Shown here one piece after another: positions 49,086 to 53,647 of a stretch of 64,000 nt of DNA (its first letter is position 1; every line of letters starts with the position of its first letter). The stretch comes from an uncultured Clostridia bacterium. Its GTDB lineage: Bacteria; Bacillota; Clostridia; Oscillospirales; Ruminococcaceae. The stretch lies in assembly GCA_947627465.1 (NCBI GenBank), contig CANQWD010000003.1, positions 1 to 64,000 of the forward strand. The letters are read 5' to 3'. The notes beneath the pieces were generated by a model. The model was not told where the DNA came from and did not search any database. It saw only the letters and a list, made by a program, of their open reading frames with translations. Both the position numbers and the translations under genes were made by a program.

Positions 49086-49154
49086 ATTTTCCCCCATTTC
49101 GTACAAGGACCCTATTTATATGTACGGGTCACAGTCCCAAAACCTCTTGTATAT

Positions 49155-49183
49155 ATTATAATACAAAAAATCCGTTTTGTAAA
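49155..49183 (-). promoter_or_regulatory. promoter of the sugar transferase gene
   Basis: Minus strand TTTACA (49178-49183), 17-bp spacer, TATAAT (49155-49160). Between this and the plus-strand promoter at 49321 the DNA is AT-rich with no gene. Confidence 0.8.
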
Positions 49184-49320
49184 GGGCAAAATGTCAAAAT
49201 TTAGGCTACTTTTCAATAAAATTATTAGTTTTTTTGCCCTATTGTAAAAAATTACCAAATATTTTTACTAAAATTTTCCAAAACATGCTGTAAAGCCCCG
49301 CATAAAATTACGGTTTCCTC

Positions 49321-49349
49321 TTGACAAATCAAGGAAATCGGAGTATAAT
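49321..49349 (+). promoter_or_regulatory. consensus promoter of the leader RNA / TM1266 / ABC operon
   Basis: TTGACA (49321-49326), 17-bp spacer, TATAAT (49344-49349): perfect. Predicted start of transcription near 49356. Confidence 0.9.
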
Positions 49350-49355
49350 ATAAAG

Positions 49356-49627
49356 CGCGGGGAAAACCGAACCTAAGGTCATTCCGAGGGAACGCCCCCG
49401 CAGTCCGTTTTTTGGCAATTTCTGACGGCAAAATTTTATTGAGCCGAAAGACATCAAACAAGTATGAACATGCGGAAACACCGCATAATATATTTGTGCG
49501 TCTTTCGGGGCGCACATTTTTAGTTTAACGCCGAAATTTGTGCGCCTAAAAGGCGTTCCTTCGTTAAGGCAGAATTTACAAACGCTCTGCGGTCGGGAAC
49601 GCCACGAACAAAAAGAGGACAACGCTT
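49356..49627 (+). ncRNA. structured 5' leader, candidate riboswitch or attenuator
   Basis: About 270 nt of non-coding RNA between a perfect promoter and the TM1266-family start codon. Stems: GCGGGG 49357-49362 / CCCCGC 49396-49401; CCGAAAGAC 49444-49452 / GTCTTTCGG 49500-49508; ATGCGG 49470-49475 / CCGCAT 49481-49486; terminator-like TGTGCG 49495-49500 / CGCACA 49511-49516 followed by TTTTT; competing GGCGCACA 49509-49516 / TGTGCGCC 49539-49546; AACGCC 49527-49532 / GGCGTT 49552-49557; and GGCGTTCC 49552-49559 / GGAACGCC 49596-49603. GGGAACGCC occurs twice (49388 and 49595), so GGCGTTCC has two possible partners. I recognise no known riboswitch motif in it. Confidence 0.7.
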
Positions 49628-49900
49628 ATGGAAAACGAAAACAGAATAGCGATAATCTCGATGATAATCGCAAACGAGGCTTCCGTGCCCGAGGTGAACG
49701 GGCTGCTGCACGAATACAACAGATTTATTCTGAGCCGAATGGGGCTGCCGCTTCGCGAACGGGGTTTGAACATAATAAGCGTTGTCGCCGACGCGCCCGC
49801 CGACAAGATCTCGGCTCTTTCGGGAAAGCTGGGCAGACTTGCGGGCGTGACTTCAAAGGCGGTCTACTCCAAGACCGAAACGAAAAAGAAAGAAGGATGA
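49628..49900 (+). CDS. TM1266-family protein (putative [FeFe]-hydrogenase system regulator)
   Basis: 90 residues of ACT-like/ferredoxin-like fold. RIAIISMIIANEASVPEVN, LLHEYNRFILSRMGLPLRERGLNIISVV (as adjoining parts) and ISALSGKLGRLAGV match the TM1266 family, which is often encoded beside hydrogenase maturation genes and proposed as a regulator. No hyd genes are here; instead it opens an ABC importer operon behind a long structured leader. The tail KTETKKKEG is charged. AGAGGAC precedes the ATG by 7 nt. Confidence 0.8.
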   Translation: MENENRIAIISMIIANEASVPEVNGLLHEYNRFILSRMGLPLRERGLNIISVVADAPADKISALSGKLGRLAGVTSKAVYSKTETKKKEG

Positions 49901-49907
49901 ACAAATT

Positions 49908-51047
49908 ATGAAACTCAAAAAAATCATTTCAAGCGTATTGGCAGCGGCATTTTGTGCGCTGTCACTGACAGGCTGCGGAAACGGCGGTTCTTCGACACCC
50001 GAAAGCTCCGCAAGCTCCCCTGCCGGCTCGGTGAATTCGAGTGAAAGCTCGGTAAATTCGGGTGAAAGCGCGACTTCAAGCGCCGCGGGTTCGGACGTCT
50101 CCGCTCCCGAAAGCGCCGCGTCAACTTCCGAAAGCGGCACGGCTTCAACTCCCGTGGAAAACGGCTCGGTTAAAGTAGTCGCTCTCAAAGGTCCGACTGC
50201 AATGGGCTTGGCGAAACTTATGGAAGATAACGAAAAGAATAATTTAGGTTATAACTTTGAAATAAAAGCCGCTCCCGACGAGATCTCGCCTATGGCGGCG
50301 CAGGGCACCGCGGATATTTTCTGCGTTCCCGCTAATTTGGCAAGCGTCCTCTGCAATAAAACCGAAGGCAAGGTTCAGGCGATAGCGGTAAACACGCTCG
50401 GTGTGCTTTACATCTGCGAAAAAGGCGAGACCGTAAAATCCGTCGCAGACCTCAAGGGCAAGACGATCTATTCTGCGGGCAAAGGCTCTACTCCCGAATA
50501 CGCGCTGAACTTTATCCTGAAAAACAATAACCTCGACCCCGAAAAGGACGTTACCATTGAATGGAAAAGCGAACACGCCGAGTGTCTCGAGGCAATGCTT
50601 AAAGGTGAAAACTGCGTTGCCATGCTGCCGCAGCCGTTTGTAACCACGGCGCAGATCAAAAACGACGCGGTAAAAGTCGTTCTGGATCTTAACAAAGAGT
50701 GGGACGCTCTCGGCAAGGACAGCTCGCTTATCACAGGCGCGGCTATCGTTCGCAAGGAATTTGCGGAAAACAATCCCGAAGCGCTCAAAACGTTTTTGAA
50801 GCAATACAAGGACTCGGTTGATTACGTAAACAACAACGTGGACGACGCGGCGGCTCTTATTGAAAAAGCGGATATCGTTCCCGCCGCCGTTGCGAAAAAA
50901 GCGATACCGAACTGCAACATCGTTTGCATTACAGGCGAAGAAATGAAAACAAAGCTTTCCGCGTATTTGCAGGTGCTGTTTGACAGCGACCCGAAATCCG
51001 TAGGCGGCAAACTCCCCGAGGACGCGTTCTATTATATCGCCGAGTAA
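49908..51047 (+). CDS. ABC transporter substrate-binding lipoprotein (NMT1/SsuA-like)
   Basis: 379 residues. Lipoprotein signal with lipobox LTGC (Cys23), then a 55-residue Ser/Glu/Gly linker, then a type II periplasmic-binding fold: VKVVALKGPTAMGLAKLME, GTADIFCVPANLASVL, SVADLKGKTIYSAGKGSTPE and LKGENCVAMLPQPFVT. This is the layout of NMT1/THI5 and alkanesulfonate/taurine-type binding proteins. The ligand is unknown; a thiamine precursor, a sulfonate or another small anion are possible. It follows the TM1266-type gene by 7 bp. Confidence 0.88.
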   Translation: MKLKKIISSVLAAAFCALSLTGCGNGGSSTPESSASSPAGSVNSSESSVNSGESATSSAAGSDVSAPESAASTSESGTASTPVENGSVKVVALKGPTAMGLAKLMEDNEKNNLGYNFEIKAAPDEISPMAAQGTADIFCVPANLASVLCNKTEGKVQAIAVNTLGVLYICEKGETVKSVADLKGKTIYSAGKGSTPEYALNFILKNNNLDPEKDVTIEWKSEHAECLEAMLKGENCVAMLPQPFVTTAQIKNDAVKVVLDLNKEWDALGKDSSLITGAAIVRKEFAENNPEALKTFLKQYKDSVDYVNNNVDDAAALIEKADIVPAAVAKKAIPNCNIVCITGEEMKTKLSAYLQVLFDSDPKSVGGKLPEDAFYYIAE

Positions 51048-51050
51048 TCG

Positions 51051-51806
51051 ATGCACAAGCTCAAAAAGTTCGGCGTTACCGCCGCCGCGGTTTTATTTTG
51101 GCTGGCGATATGGCAAATTGCCGCGCTCAAACTTGACAGCGAGATAATCCTTGTTTCTCCGATAAAAGCGGCAAAGCGCCTTTTCGAGCTTGTGCCGCTC
51201 AGCGGATTTTGGCAAAGCGTGCTGTTTTCGGCGGCGCGGGTGCTTGCGGGGTTCGCGCTGGGATTGGCGGCGGGAACGCTTTTAGCTGTGGCTTCAAAGA
51301 AATTCCGTATCGTAAGAGCGCTTTTTTCGCCGCTTATCTCCGCGATGAAATCCATTCCCGTTGCGTCGTTCACCATTCTCGCGCTTATTTGGATCGGCTC
51401 AAAGAACCTTTCCGTGCTTGTATCCTTTTTGATATGCGTGCCGATAGTCTGCGGAAATATGCTGGAGGGTTTAGATAATTTAAACCCAAAACTTACGGAA
51501 ATGTCCCATGTTTTCCAAATATCGCCATGGAGAAGATTTGTCGGTGTTTATTTATCTCAGCTTCTCCCCTACTTCCGCTCCGCGGCTCGGCTCGGTATAG
51601 GACTTTGTTGGAAATCGGGGGTTGCCGCGGAAGTGATCGGCATACCGAACGGCTCGATCGGAGAAAAGCTTTATCAATCAAAGGTTTATCTGGAGACCGC
51701 CGATCTTTTCGCGTGGACAGCCACGGTGATCTTATTGAGCTTTTTGTGCGAAAAACTGTTTACGGCGCTTCTGAATTTACTGCAAAAACGCGTTGAAAGA
51801 ATGTGA
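51051..51806 (+). CDS. ABC transporter permease (SsuC/TauC-like)
   Basis: Membrane protein of 251 residues with about six segments; the cytoplasmic loop FRSAARLGIGLCWKSGVAAEVIG is the EAA-type motif of nitrate/sulfonate/thiamine-precursor permeases. It begins 3 bp after the binding protein stop with no clear Shine-Dalgarno, so translation is probably coupled. The ATPase gene starts 7 bp after its stop. Confidence 0.9.
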   Translation: MHKLKKFGVTAAAVLFWLAIWQIAALKLDSEIILVSPIKAAKRLFELVPLSGFWQSVLFSAARVLAGFALGLAAGTLLAVASKKFRIVRALFSPLISAMKSIPVASFTILALIWIGSKNLSVLVSFLICVPIVCGNMLEGLDNLNPKLTEMSHVFQISPWRRFVGVYLSQLLPYFRSAARLGIGLCWKSGVAAEVIGIPNGSIGEKLYQSKVYLETADLFAWTATVILLSFLCEKLFTALLNLLQKRVERM

Positions 51807-51813
51807 GGACGTT

Positions 51814-52377
51814 ATGCTGAAAGCCGTACAAATCCGCAAGAGCTTCGGAGAACTTTGCGTTCTCGAAAACTTCACGCACGAATTTGCCGAGGGAAAGAGC
51901 ACTGCGGTTTTGGGAAAATCGGGCTGTGGAAAGACCACGCTTCTGAATATTCTTATGGGATTGCAAACGCCCGACAGCGGCGAGGTCGTTCGCGACGGCA
52001 AGATAAGCGCGGTATTTCAGGAAAACAGACTGTGCGAAAACCTCACCGCCTCCGCGAATATCCGCTTAGTCACGGGAAAACGGCTCTCCAAAGCGCAAAT
52101 TGCCGAGGAACTTGCCGCCGTGGGGCTTTCGGGCTGCGAAAACAAGCCCGTGCGGGAGCTTTCAGGAGGAATGAAGCGCAGAACTTCGCTCCTGCGCGCC
52201 CTGCTCGCCGAATACGATATTCTTTTCGCCGACGAGCCGTTCAAAGGCTTGGACGCTGACACAAAGCGCGAGGTTATGCGGTATTTCAAGGAAAAGACCT
52301 CGGGCAAGACCGTGGTTTTGGTAACTCACGACAATGACGAGTGCGAGGCTCTCGCCGACGATATTATAAGACTTTAA
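51814..52377 (+). CDS. ABC transporter ATP-binding protein, short form
   Basis: 187 residues. Walker A GKSGCGKTT near residue 37, Q-loop AVFQENRLCENL, signature LSGGMKRR, Walker B ILFADEPFKGLD and switch His in VLVTHDNDE are all present, so it should be active. It ends right after the core, about 50-60 residues shorter than SsuB/TauB-type ATPases. The ATG at 51814 follows GAGG by 5 nt; an in-frame start at 51793 would overlap the permease. It completes a binding protein - permease - ATPase importer. Confidence 0.9.
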   Translation: MLKAVQIRKSFGELCVLENFTHEFAEGKSTAVLGKSGCGKTTLLNILMGLQTPDSGEVVRDGKISAVFQENRLCENLTASANIRLVTGKRLSKAQIAEELAAVGLSGCENKPVRELSGGMKRRTSLLRALLAEYDILFADEPFKGLDADTKREVMRYFKEKTSGKTVVLVTHDNDECEALADDIIRL

Positions 52378-52387
52378 AGGTGACGGA

Positions 52388-52831
52388 ATGGAATTTGTCA
52401 TAGGGTATGTAATGATTGCCGTACTTATGCTGTTTATGGGCTTCAGCATTGCGCATATCGGCATAATGACGCTGATTTTGCTCGGCGTTTTCGTCGCGCT
52501 TGTCGGGCTGTTTTTTACGGTCTGCCTTGTATTTTTGGCGGCGTCAAAGCGGGTAACGGCTGTGTTCGGCTTTATAAACGAAGAACCTCGCTTTCCCGTG
52601 GCTGTTTACAAAGTCGGCGGCGAGGAAATTCCGAACCTTTTCCCGTGCGAGATGATAATGCGGAAAAAGCTGTACGTGCCCGACAAAGAGATCAAAATTC
52701 TTCGCTGTAAGCTGCGAAAAGTCGTCATTGACGCGAACGCGCTCATAACGATCATCTCGGGCAGCGTGATTTTCATTCCGTCGGCGGTGTTCTGCGTTAT
52801 TAAGATAATCGAATTTTTCGCGGAATTATAA
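52388..52831 (+). CDS. membrane protein of unknown function, 147 residues
   Basis: I do not recognise this protein. Two N-terminal membrane segments (VIGYVMIAVLMLFMGFSIAHI and LILLGVFVALVGLFFTVCLVF, each shown in part), a soluble stretch of about 60 residues (EEPRFPVAVYKVGGEEIPNL) and a C-terminal segment (TIISGSVIFIPSAVFCVIKII). It begins 10 bp after the ATPase gene and may be cotranscribed with the importer, which would make it an accessory or a passenger. Confidence 0.65.
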   Translation: MEFVIGYVMIAVLMLFMGFSIAHIGIMTLILLGVFVALVGLFFTVCLVFLAASKRVTAVFGFINEEPRFPVAVYKVGGEEIPNLFPCEMIMRKKLYVPDKEIKILRCKLRKVVIDANALITIISGSVIFIPSAVFCVIKIIEFFAEL

Positions 52832-52858: not shown

Positions 52859-53647
52859 ATGATAATAGACGCGCACGCGCATATCTTTCCGGATAAAATT
52901 GCCGAGAAAGCGTCCGACGGCATAAGCGCTTTCTATGACGGAATGAAAATGGACAGCCGCGGCACTTTGGGAGAACTGCTAAAAAAGGGCAGCGAAGCGG
53001 GCGTTGACCGCTTTATAGTTCAGTCCGTGGCGACCGTGCCGGCACAGGTGCCCTCGATAAACGATTTTATAGCGAAAAGCGTAAAAGAACACCCCGACAA
53101 GCTGACGGGTTTTGGAGCGCTGCACCCCGATTTTGAAGATATATACGGCGAAACCGAACGGATAATTTCGCTCGGGCTTCGCGGAATAAAACTCCACAGC
53201 GATTTTCAAGGCTTCGATATCGACGATGAAAAGGCGTTTCCGATCTACGAAGCCGCCGAGGGCAGACTGCCTGTTTTATTTCATGTCGGTGACAACCGCT
53301 CAGACCGTTCCTCGCCCGAACGCTTGCTGAACATTGTAAAGCGTTTCCCGAAGCTCACCGTTATCGGAGCGCACTTCGCGGGGTGGTCGATGTGGGACAG
53401 GGGCGCGGAGCTTTTTGACCACAACGGCATCTACACGGACTGCTCCAGTTCGCTTTACGCAATGGCTCCCGAGCATGCCGCCGAGCTTATCCGAAAGATC
53501 GGCGTTCACCGAGTGATGTGGGGCACGGATTACCCTATGTGGAACGCTAAAGAGGAGTTGGAACGCTTCTCTAAGCTCCCCCTTTCCGACCGCGAACGCG
53601 AACTTATCCTAAGCGAAAACGCTCGGCGGATTCTCGGAGAGATTTAA
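52859..53647 (+). CDS. amidohydrolase-family metal-dependent hydrolase
   Basis: 262 residues, TIM-barrel amidohydrolase (amidohydrolase_2 type). HAHIFP (HxH metal site), GIKLHSDFQGFD (with the His after the Lys), FHVGDN, GAHFAGWS and the final metal Asp in WGTDYPMWN are all visible. Members include decarboxylases and hydrolases; the substrate is not known. AGAGGTGG precedes the ATG. Last plus-strand gene before a hairpin at 53673. Confidence 0.88.
   Translation: MIIDAHAHIFPDKIAEKASDGISAFYDGMKMDSRGTLGELLKKGSEAGVDRFIVQSVATVPAQVPSINDFIAKSVKEHPDKLTGFGALHPDFEDIYGETERIISLGLRGIKLHSDFQGFDIDDEKAFPIYEAAEGRLPVLFHVGDNRSDRSSPERLLNIVKRFPKLTVIGAHFAGWSMWDRGAELFDHNGIYTDCSSSLYAMAPEHAAELIRKIGVHRVMWGTDYPMWNAKEELERFSKLPLSDRERELILSENARRILGEI

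Follow-up and report, generated by a model that had tools for sequence, protein, structure and literature searches.

This locus raises the question of what a gene-free leader of about 270 nt does between a promoter and an operon for a TM1266-family protein (90 aa), an SsuA/NMT1-like binding protein, a permease and an ATPase, and what such a leader would respond to. The window, that is, the whole 64,000-nt stretch of DNA analysed, belongs to a 2.52-Mb draft genome (52 contigs) of an uncultured Clostridia bacterium. The results left little doubt that the leader is a conserved regulatory RNA acting by attenuation, and it is probably off when bound. Our main reading, held at a rough probability of 0.47, is a cis-acting attenuator of the [FeFe]-hydrogenase H-cluster-maturation regulon, with the TM1266 protein as effector.

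As shown in Table 1, the promoter, which the preliminary description had called perfect, is followed by the predicted leader and by an operon whose genes were named by domain matches. The 272-nt leader had a folding energy of -95.6 kcal/mol against a mean of -71.1 for dinucleotide shuffles (z -5.28), and beat 200 of 200 of them. Two terminator-like sites were found in 49100-49700, compared with a mean of 0.8 in shuffled sequences, and the U-tract terminator proposed earlier, with its T-rich tail, was among them. A promoter-proximal leader with an intrinsic terminator upstream of the first gene is the layout of a transcription attenuator. The fold of the window alone agreed with the RNAalifold consensus on HP1, and the outer stem P1 varied among relatives when their leaders were compared. 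HP2 of the window matched the covariance model R2 with an E-value of 2.9e-6, the model including close relatives that share its core. On the 3' side of the importer genes, on the same strand, lie genes for a 147-aa protein with no Pfam or NCBIfam match (52388-52831) and an Amidohydro_2 protein (52859-53647).

Table 1 Features of the leader and its operon in the window.
Feature	Positions	Strand	Basis or remark
Sigma-70-type promoter, TTGACA-17-TATAAT	49321..49349	+	12/12 consensus positions
P1 outer stem (49357-49362 with 49396-49401), HP1 on top	49357..49401	+	Fold of the window segment
HP1, first symmetric hairpin, CG-[AA/AA]-CCU-[AA/GA]-GG-loop-CC	49368..49394	+	RNAalifold on 19 leaders; compensatory changes
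HP2, second symmetric hairpin, CTGA-CGGC-AAAA-loop-TTGA-GCCG-AAAG	49422..49450	+	Class-wide element; proposed anti-antiterminator
Antiterminator 5' strand, CCGAAAGAC	49444..49452	+	Pairs with 49500-49508; overlaps HP2 3' strand
Intrinsic terminator, hairpin 49495-49516 and T tract 49517-49521	49495..49521	+	-13.0 kcal/mol for 49495-49525
TM1266-family gene, proposed effector	49628..49900	+	TIGR03959, 99.8 bits (cut-off 60.8); PF21699, 96.9 (cut-off 27)
SsuA/NMT1-like substrate-binding lipoprotein gene	49908..51047	+	PF12974 and PF09084 above cut-off; TIGR01728 below its cut-off
ABC importer permease gene	51051..51806	+	PF00528
ABC importer ATPase gene	51793..52377	+	PF00005

The leader had been described as dense with segments whose pairings exclude each other, and these were found where they had been placed: TGTGCG at 49495, CGCACA at 49511, TGTGCGCC at 49539, GGCGTTCC at 49552 and GGGAACGCC at 49388 and 49595. 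The 9-nt complement was confirmed as CCGAAAGAC against GTCTTTCGG, which spans the terminator loop and part of its 5' arm, so that antiterminator and terminator exclude each other in the window. The free energies of the two states were nearly equal (HP2 with terminator, -49.8 kcal/mol; antiterminator, -51.0; free optimum, -51.3). The exclusive pairings are real, and the conservation of HP1, HP2, the antiterminator strand and the terminator in relatives is decisive beyond chance. The downstream pairing of CGCACA with TGTGCGCC held in the window (9 nt, 0.005 by shuffles) but was weak in most relatives, where at least 7 contiguous pairs occurred in 9/18 and a value of <=0.03 was reached in 3/18, the window locus and one other not being counted; as it is not widely conserved, we dropped this third pairing as a general feature. 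For the pairing of GGCGTTCC with GGGAACGCC, no counterpart was seen by eye in the leader sequences of relatives.

A nucleotide search of 100 relatives, 43 of them of the window's genus, found the leader core in 21 genomes including the window's own, all of that genus. The extracted leaders keep a fixed order: a promoter, a hairpin on a variable stem, the segment CUGACGGYRAAAUUUU..UUGAGCCGAAAG, which hardly varies, and a terminator with GCGUCUUUCGG, complementary to CCGAAAGAC, on its 5' side. In three loci (L004, L006, L009) the region between promoter and HP2 was longer or unlike HP1, as if HP1 had been replaced or interrupted, and these were excluded from the alignments. RNAalifold on 19 leaders (alignment A2) returned two hairpins of one plan unguided. 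HP1 carried compensatory changes, for example one pair that was A-U in 9/19 and G-C in 7/19, and the covariation score of A2 was 0.244, compared with 0.120 for shuffled and at most 0.065 for slid alignments. HP2 was almost unvarying within the genus and so gave no covariation at this level. A covariance model built from A2 (R1) detected the leader in 33/43 genus genomes at E<=0.05, and some of those without it had a version with a single 3-bp hairpin before TM1266 (L303, L307, L311).

At the order level, R1 gave matches in 10/394 genomes. The genus accounted for three of these, and a further four were set aside or left open: L169, L171 and L172 were judged to be chance, and L168 was left open. 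The three distant copies precede TM1266, with HydE next in L166 and L167 and a FecCD/BtuC-type permease next in L170. In them, HP2 had changed from CGGC/GCCG to CACC/GGUG in a compensatory manner, and the survey was therefore restarted from the TM1266 gene. Other genus members likewise had CGCU/AGCG for CGGC/GCCG, with the inner AA/UU changed to GA/UC. The exact core was restricted to the clade (40 stretches, of which 22 were genuine by eye and 18 chance-like), yet the structure extends beyond it, and a genus-only motif was rejected.

TM1266 (TIGR03959) was matched in 140/295 genomes of the order and 179/291 of the class, and a subset of 229 genes was surveyed (130 order-level, 30 from the genus, 69 class-level). 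The 420 nt upstream of each were scored for hairpins carrying a pair of 2x2 internal loops. A score of >=26 was reached by 114/229 upstream regions, the genus that supplied the motif being counted among them, compared with 1/229 reverse complements and 0/77 Markov shuffles; the other 115/229 scored below 26. By set, the figures were 69/130, 22/30 and 23/69, respectively, and 92/199 outside the genus. Several of the 114 were doubtful by eye, such as L181, L198, L206, L238, L255, L261, L270 and L338, and by a hand tally the clear hairpins come from about 29 groups at family level. The consensus sequence forms an inverted repeat with quasi-two-fold symmetry, namely CYGA, 3-5 bp, (R)ARG, loop, CYGA, the complementary strand and AARG, and HP1 of the genus follows a nearly identical rule. 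Most other lineages have one hairpin, not two. Leaders of genus g16 (L201, L208, L247, L260, L275, L286) carry an extra conserved hairpin, GGUGCGAG..UUUCACC or similar, 5' of the symmetric one.

Pairing in this hairpin was also evident from a pattern blind to the stem, which matched 72 times in 70/229 loci and never on the opposite strand. In 37/72 matches, where about 2% is expected by chance, the 4-nt stems were complementary throughout, and these stems were of 25 kinds. Controls with other stem lengths were mixed, as 3-nt stems were complementary in 8/18 and 5-nt stems in 0/27. In an alignment of 41 sequences with 4-bp stems (A4), which were chosen from scored hits and hence biased towards pairing, 97.6% of cells paired with 94 double changes. 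The covariation score of A4 was 0.796, compared with 0.236 shuffled and <=0.177 slid, and RNAalifold on it returned the fold unchanged with one extra pair. Matches of R2 in or beside unrelated coding sequence (L436-L439, L441-L443) were set aside as chance.

The genes below the hairpin form a coherent set. It was found upstream of TM1266, HydE, HydG and HydF and, in a distant genome, upstream of a detached orthologue of the importer. In this closed genome from outside the order (G785), hairpins precede a TM1266-HydE-HydG-HydF operon, HydG again, and a far-off operon for a binding protein and ATPase, the binding protein being 44% identical to that of the window. Another genome (G329) has the leader directly before HydE, followed by HydG and HydF (named by eye), and its TM1266 gene lies elsewhere without a hairpin. 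Among the neighbours of TM1266 in the 130 order-level loci, a BLAST-linked cluster of HydE/HydG type occurred in 98, importer proteins in 12 and FecCD-type permeases in 4. HydG was confirmed in L482, L483, L507-L510 and L513, and HydF in L514; for the importer-like protein 3' of TM1266 in L518, NCBIfam gave no match. Judged from this gene context, the importer of the window would be a member of the H-cluster-maturation regulon. Small molecules suggested earlier as ligands (thiamine precursors, molybdate or tungstate, sulfonates, nucleobases) had been based on the transporter alone; no gene was found in support of a thiamine, molybdate or sulfonate system, and TM1266, HydE, HydG and HydF together with the importer point instead to assembly of the [FeFe]-hydrogenase cofactor.

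Importer orthologues were present in 79/194 genomes of the family, and in 60 of the 65 that could be placed TM1266 was not just upstream. In 22/60 of the importer loci without TM1266 (within L077-L135), GTTGCnnnnGCAAC was found upstream, compared with 0/60 for the reversed pattern, and the gene just upstream of the importer was Crp-like in both loci examined (L087, L093). At these loci a repressor or activator of Crp/Fnr type, in place of the RNA, seems to control the importer. In two further loci, L445 (G144) and L434 (G098), TM1266 heads a nitrogenase-like cluster under the same hairpin. Besides a permease of FecCD/BtuC type, their operons encode one protein resembling NifE/NifD and another resembling NifH, the latter scoring below the nifH cut-off; a second R2 match in L434 was doubtful.

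The placement of the hairpin suggests how it works. A strict terminator lay between hairpin and TM1266 in 91/114 loci, compared with 1/114, 5/114 and 5/114 when the sequences were shuffled three times; a terminator before TM1266 was also present in 33/81 low-scoring loci. Some loci have good antiterminators of their own, for instance AAAGGUGCA/UGCACCUU in L183, AAAGAUGC/GCAUCUUU in L258 and AAAGGGAG/CUCCCUUU in L272 and L285. In a permutation test, at least 7 pairs were found in 51/107 loci, compared with 34% when permuted, and this excess is modest because the flank and terminator consensus are themselves common across loci. Elsewhere, AAAG of the hairpin adjoins a Shine-Dalgarno sequence such as AAAGGA (at HydG in L433, L435, L483, L507 and L509, the gene of L435 being named by eye, and at HydF in L514). 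In the proposed mechanism, the effector would stabilise HP2 and so free the terminator arm, transcription would stop near 49521, and TM1266 and the importer would be off. Without effector, the antiterminator (CCGAAAGAC with GTCTTTCGG) could form and the operon would be read. At the HydG and HydF copies beside a Shine-Dalgarno sequence, an occupied hairpin would block ribosomes. In the manner of PyrR, the TM1266 protein may bind the symmetric hairpin, in cis as well as in trans, and this binding may depend on a ligand or metal.

Such a mechanism was compared with known systems. Among all families of Rfam 15, the catalogued riboswitch classes included, none matched the window at gathering score, and none matched sets of 15, 10, 20 and 14 relative loci; matches in the window at E<=10 were irrelevant and attributable to chance. 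Known riboswitch classes were rejected on these scans of window and relatives. Since no family reached gathering score and homologous operons in relatives do share the conserved leader, the earlier proposal of a new attenuator has gained support.

The leader may work most like PyrR attenuation, by analogy. PyrR-controlled systems commonly have the regulator gene at the head of the operon. The 3' strand of HP2 (49444-49450) lies inside the antiterminator strand, and a stabilised hairpin would sequester it, much as in the pyr attenuators of Bacillus, where, according to an excerpt of PMC4347634, the regulator stabilises an anti-antiterminator and the terminator forms. The leader differs from them in its symmetric hairpin with CUGA/AAAG loops, in its pathway and in its binder, the proposed TM1266, which has no PyrR domain by Pfam or NCBIfam, the first gene being TIGR03959. 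The symmetric two-loop hairpin also recalls the RAT of LicT, SacY and BglG, where a small homodimeric domain binds next to a terminator, at a hairpin that contains unusual pairs (PMC3369936, in excerpt). RAT binding prevents termination, whereas here the hairpin excludes the antiterminator, and no CAT or PRD domain was among the Pfam and NCBIfam matches of eight window proteins, TM1266 included. By the tests run, the leader belongs to neither the PyrR nor the LicT/RAT systems. Two successive hairpins before a terminator, as in the window's genus, are also a feature of ANTAR leaders; ANTAR recognises the hairpin loops, as the same excerpt of PMC3369936 has it, whereas here the internal loops are conserved and most other lineages have a single hairpin, and the Pfam matches of the eight window proteins included no ANTAR domain.

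TM1266 carries the annotation of a putative iron-only hydrogenase system regulator, and the protein of the window is a single domain. The structural match to the NikR regulatory-domain fold covers the whole domain, but unlike NikR it has no ribbon-helix-helix DNA-binding part, and its proposed target is RNA. Residues R6, R37, K67 and K77 are near-invariant. The structural search also matched ACT domains and ribosomal proteins and was uninformative on RNA binding. TM1266 is the usual first gene after the hairpin, and a stand-alone copy was present in 7/8 genus genomes with the leader directly before the importer (2/8 inferred from separate contigs).

The association of hairpin and TM1266 was then examined. 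Judged by hand, the hairpin was present in 11/27 genomes with TM1266 and 2/27 HydG genomes without it (p 0.009), an association confounded by lineage; at E<0.01 only, the counts were 8 and 2 (p 0.08). The genomes without TM1266 gave 25 matches, of which 11 were inspected (2 genuine, 9 chance in coding sequence) and the other 14 all had E >= 0.12. Those with TM1266 also gave 25, of which 17 were inspected: 12 looked genuine, in 11 genomes, 4 were chance, and L516 (G656) was doubtful, as was L528 (G622), which was read separately. Both doubtful loci are outside the 11, and counting them gives 13/27 (p 0.002). G609, G610 and G639, which were used for R2, and G638, G644 and G647 were excluded from the genomes with TM1266. 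Genuine-looking hairpins stood before HydG in G620 and G794, where no TM1266 gene was detected, and in G036 the leader was present but TM1266 was not matched; these three genomes are drafts with a completeness of 90-97%.

On this evidence, the TM1266 protein is favoured, tentatively, over a small molecule as effector. Somewhat less likely is a new riboswitch class, in which the mirrored CUGA/AAAG internal loops would hold a small molecule or metal connected with H-cluster assembly in one pocket or in two, the ligand would stabilise HP2 and turn the operon off, and HP1 and HP2 would be tandem aptamers in the genus. Conserved covarying structure 5' of functionally related genes is what a riboswitch would show, and the loop letters conserved on covarying stems, the terminator/antiterminator logic, the pathway-specific genes with their importer, the tandem hairpins of the genus and the hairpins in the three drafts all fit it. 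Tandem riboswitches of the guanidine-II type consist of two small hairpins separated by a linker whose length varies, as in the window's genus; here, however, no Rfam match was found, the conserved residues are in internal rather than terminal loops, and one hairpin suffices elsewhere. A symmetric hairpin of 28-30 nt is small for a metabolite aptamer, the Shine-Dalgarno copies had no obvious alternative pairing by eye, and the hairpin goes with the presence of TM1266. The symmetry, the usual first gene and the Shine-Dalgarno-adjacent copies suit a protein effector at least as well as the ligand-controlled leader of the preliminary description, from which the conserved CUGA..AAAG hairpins were absent.

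Another RNA-binding protein or an sRNA, with TM1266 merely co-regulated, is unlikely. Where the leader stands directly before the importer, the stand-alone TM1266 is mostly without a hairpin (6/7 score 15-19), and its role as a regulator is biochemically putative, but no other gene adjoins the element as regularly as TM1266 in a class-wide survey of TM1266 upstream regions. An mRNA-processing or stability element with no regulatory effector, beside an ordinary constitutive attenuator, would be in line with the modest antiterminator covariation but is very improbable given the strongly conserved internal-loop letters, the copies adjoining Shine-Dalgarno sequences and the confinement to one pathway.

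We read the RNA, with TM1266 as its favoured effector, as a new cis-regulatory class that marks the H-cluster-maturation regulon and acts by attenuation or, elsewhere, next to the Shine-Dalgarno sequence. In its fullest form, which we put forward with slightly more reserve than the role of TM1266 as effector, TM1266 might found a new RNA-binding regulator family. As a NikR-like sensor without DNA-binding domain, it would read the assembly state of the hydrogenase cofactor, bind the mirror-symmetric hairpin, and switch, by attenuation and translation block, the maturases of the H-cluster and a dedicated importer throughout Clostridia. Searches of the open-licence literature on TM1266, hydrogenase maturation, leaders of HydE, HydG and HydF, structured RNAs and orphan riboswitches yielded no report of the hairpin RNA and no mechanism for TM1266, and hydrogenase terms had 0 occurrences in the main texts of PMC2864571, PMC7266159, PMC6429828 and PMC11477304.

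An RNA switch with a mirror-symmetric hairpin, recurrent in many Clostridia before genes for H-cluster assembly, is apparently undescribed, and it probably shuts these genes off on binding of its regulator. A defined RNA partner makes the mechanism of TM1266 directly testable. If a small molecule is the effector instead, the element would represent a new class of riboswitch, whose pathway-specific ligand could then be sought, and under either effector the hairpin serves as a simple marker for annotating Clostridia. The element delimits the H-cluster-assembly regulon in anaerobes and adds an ABC importer to it, which is a lead to a possible source of precursor or metal.
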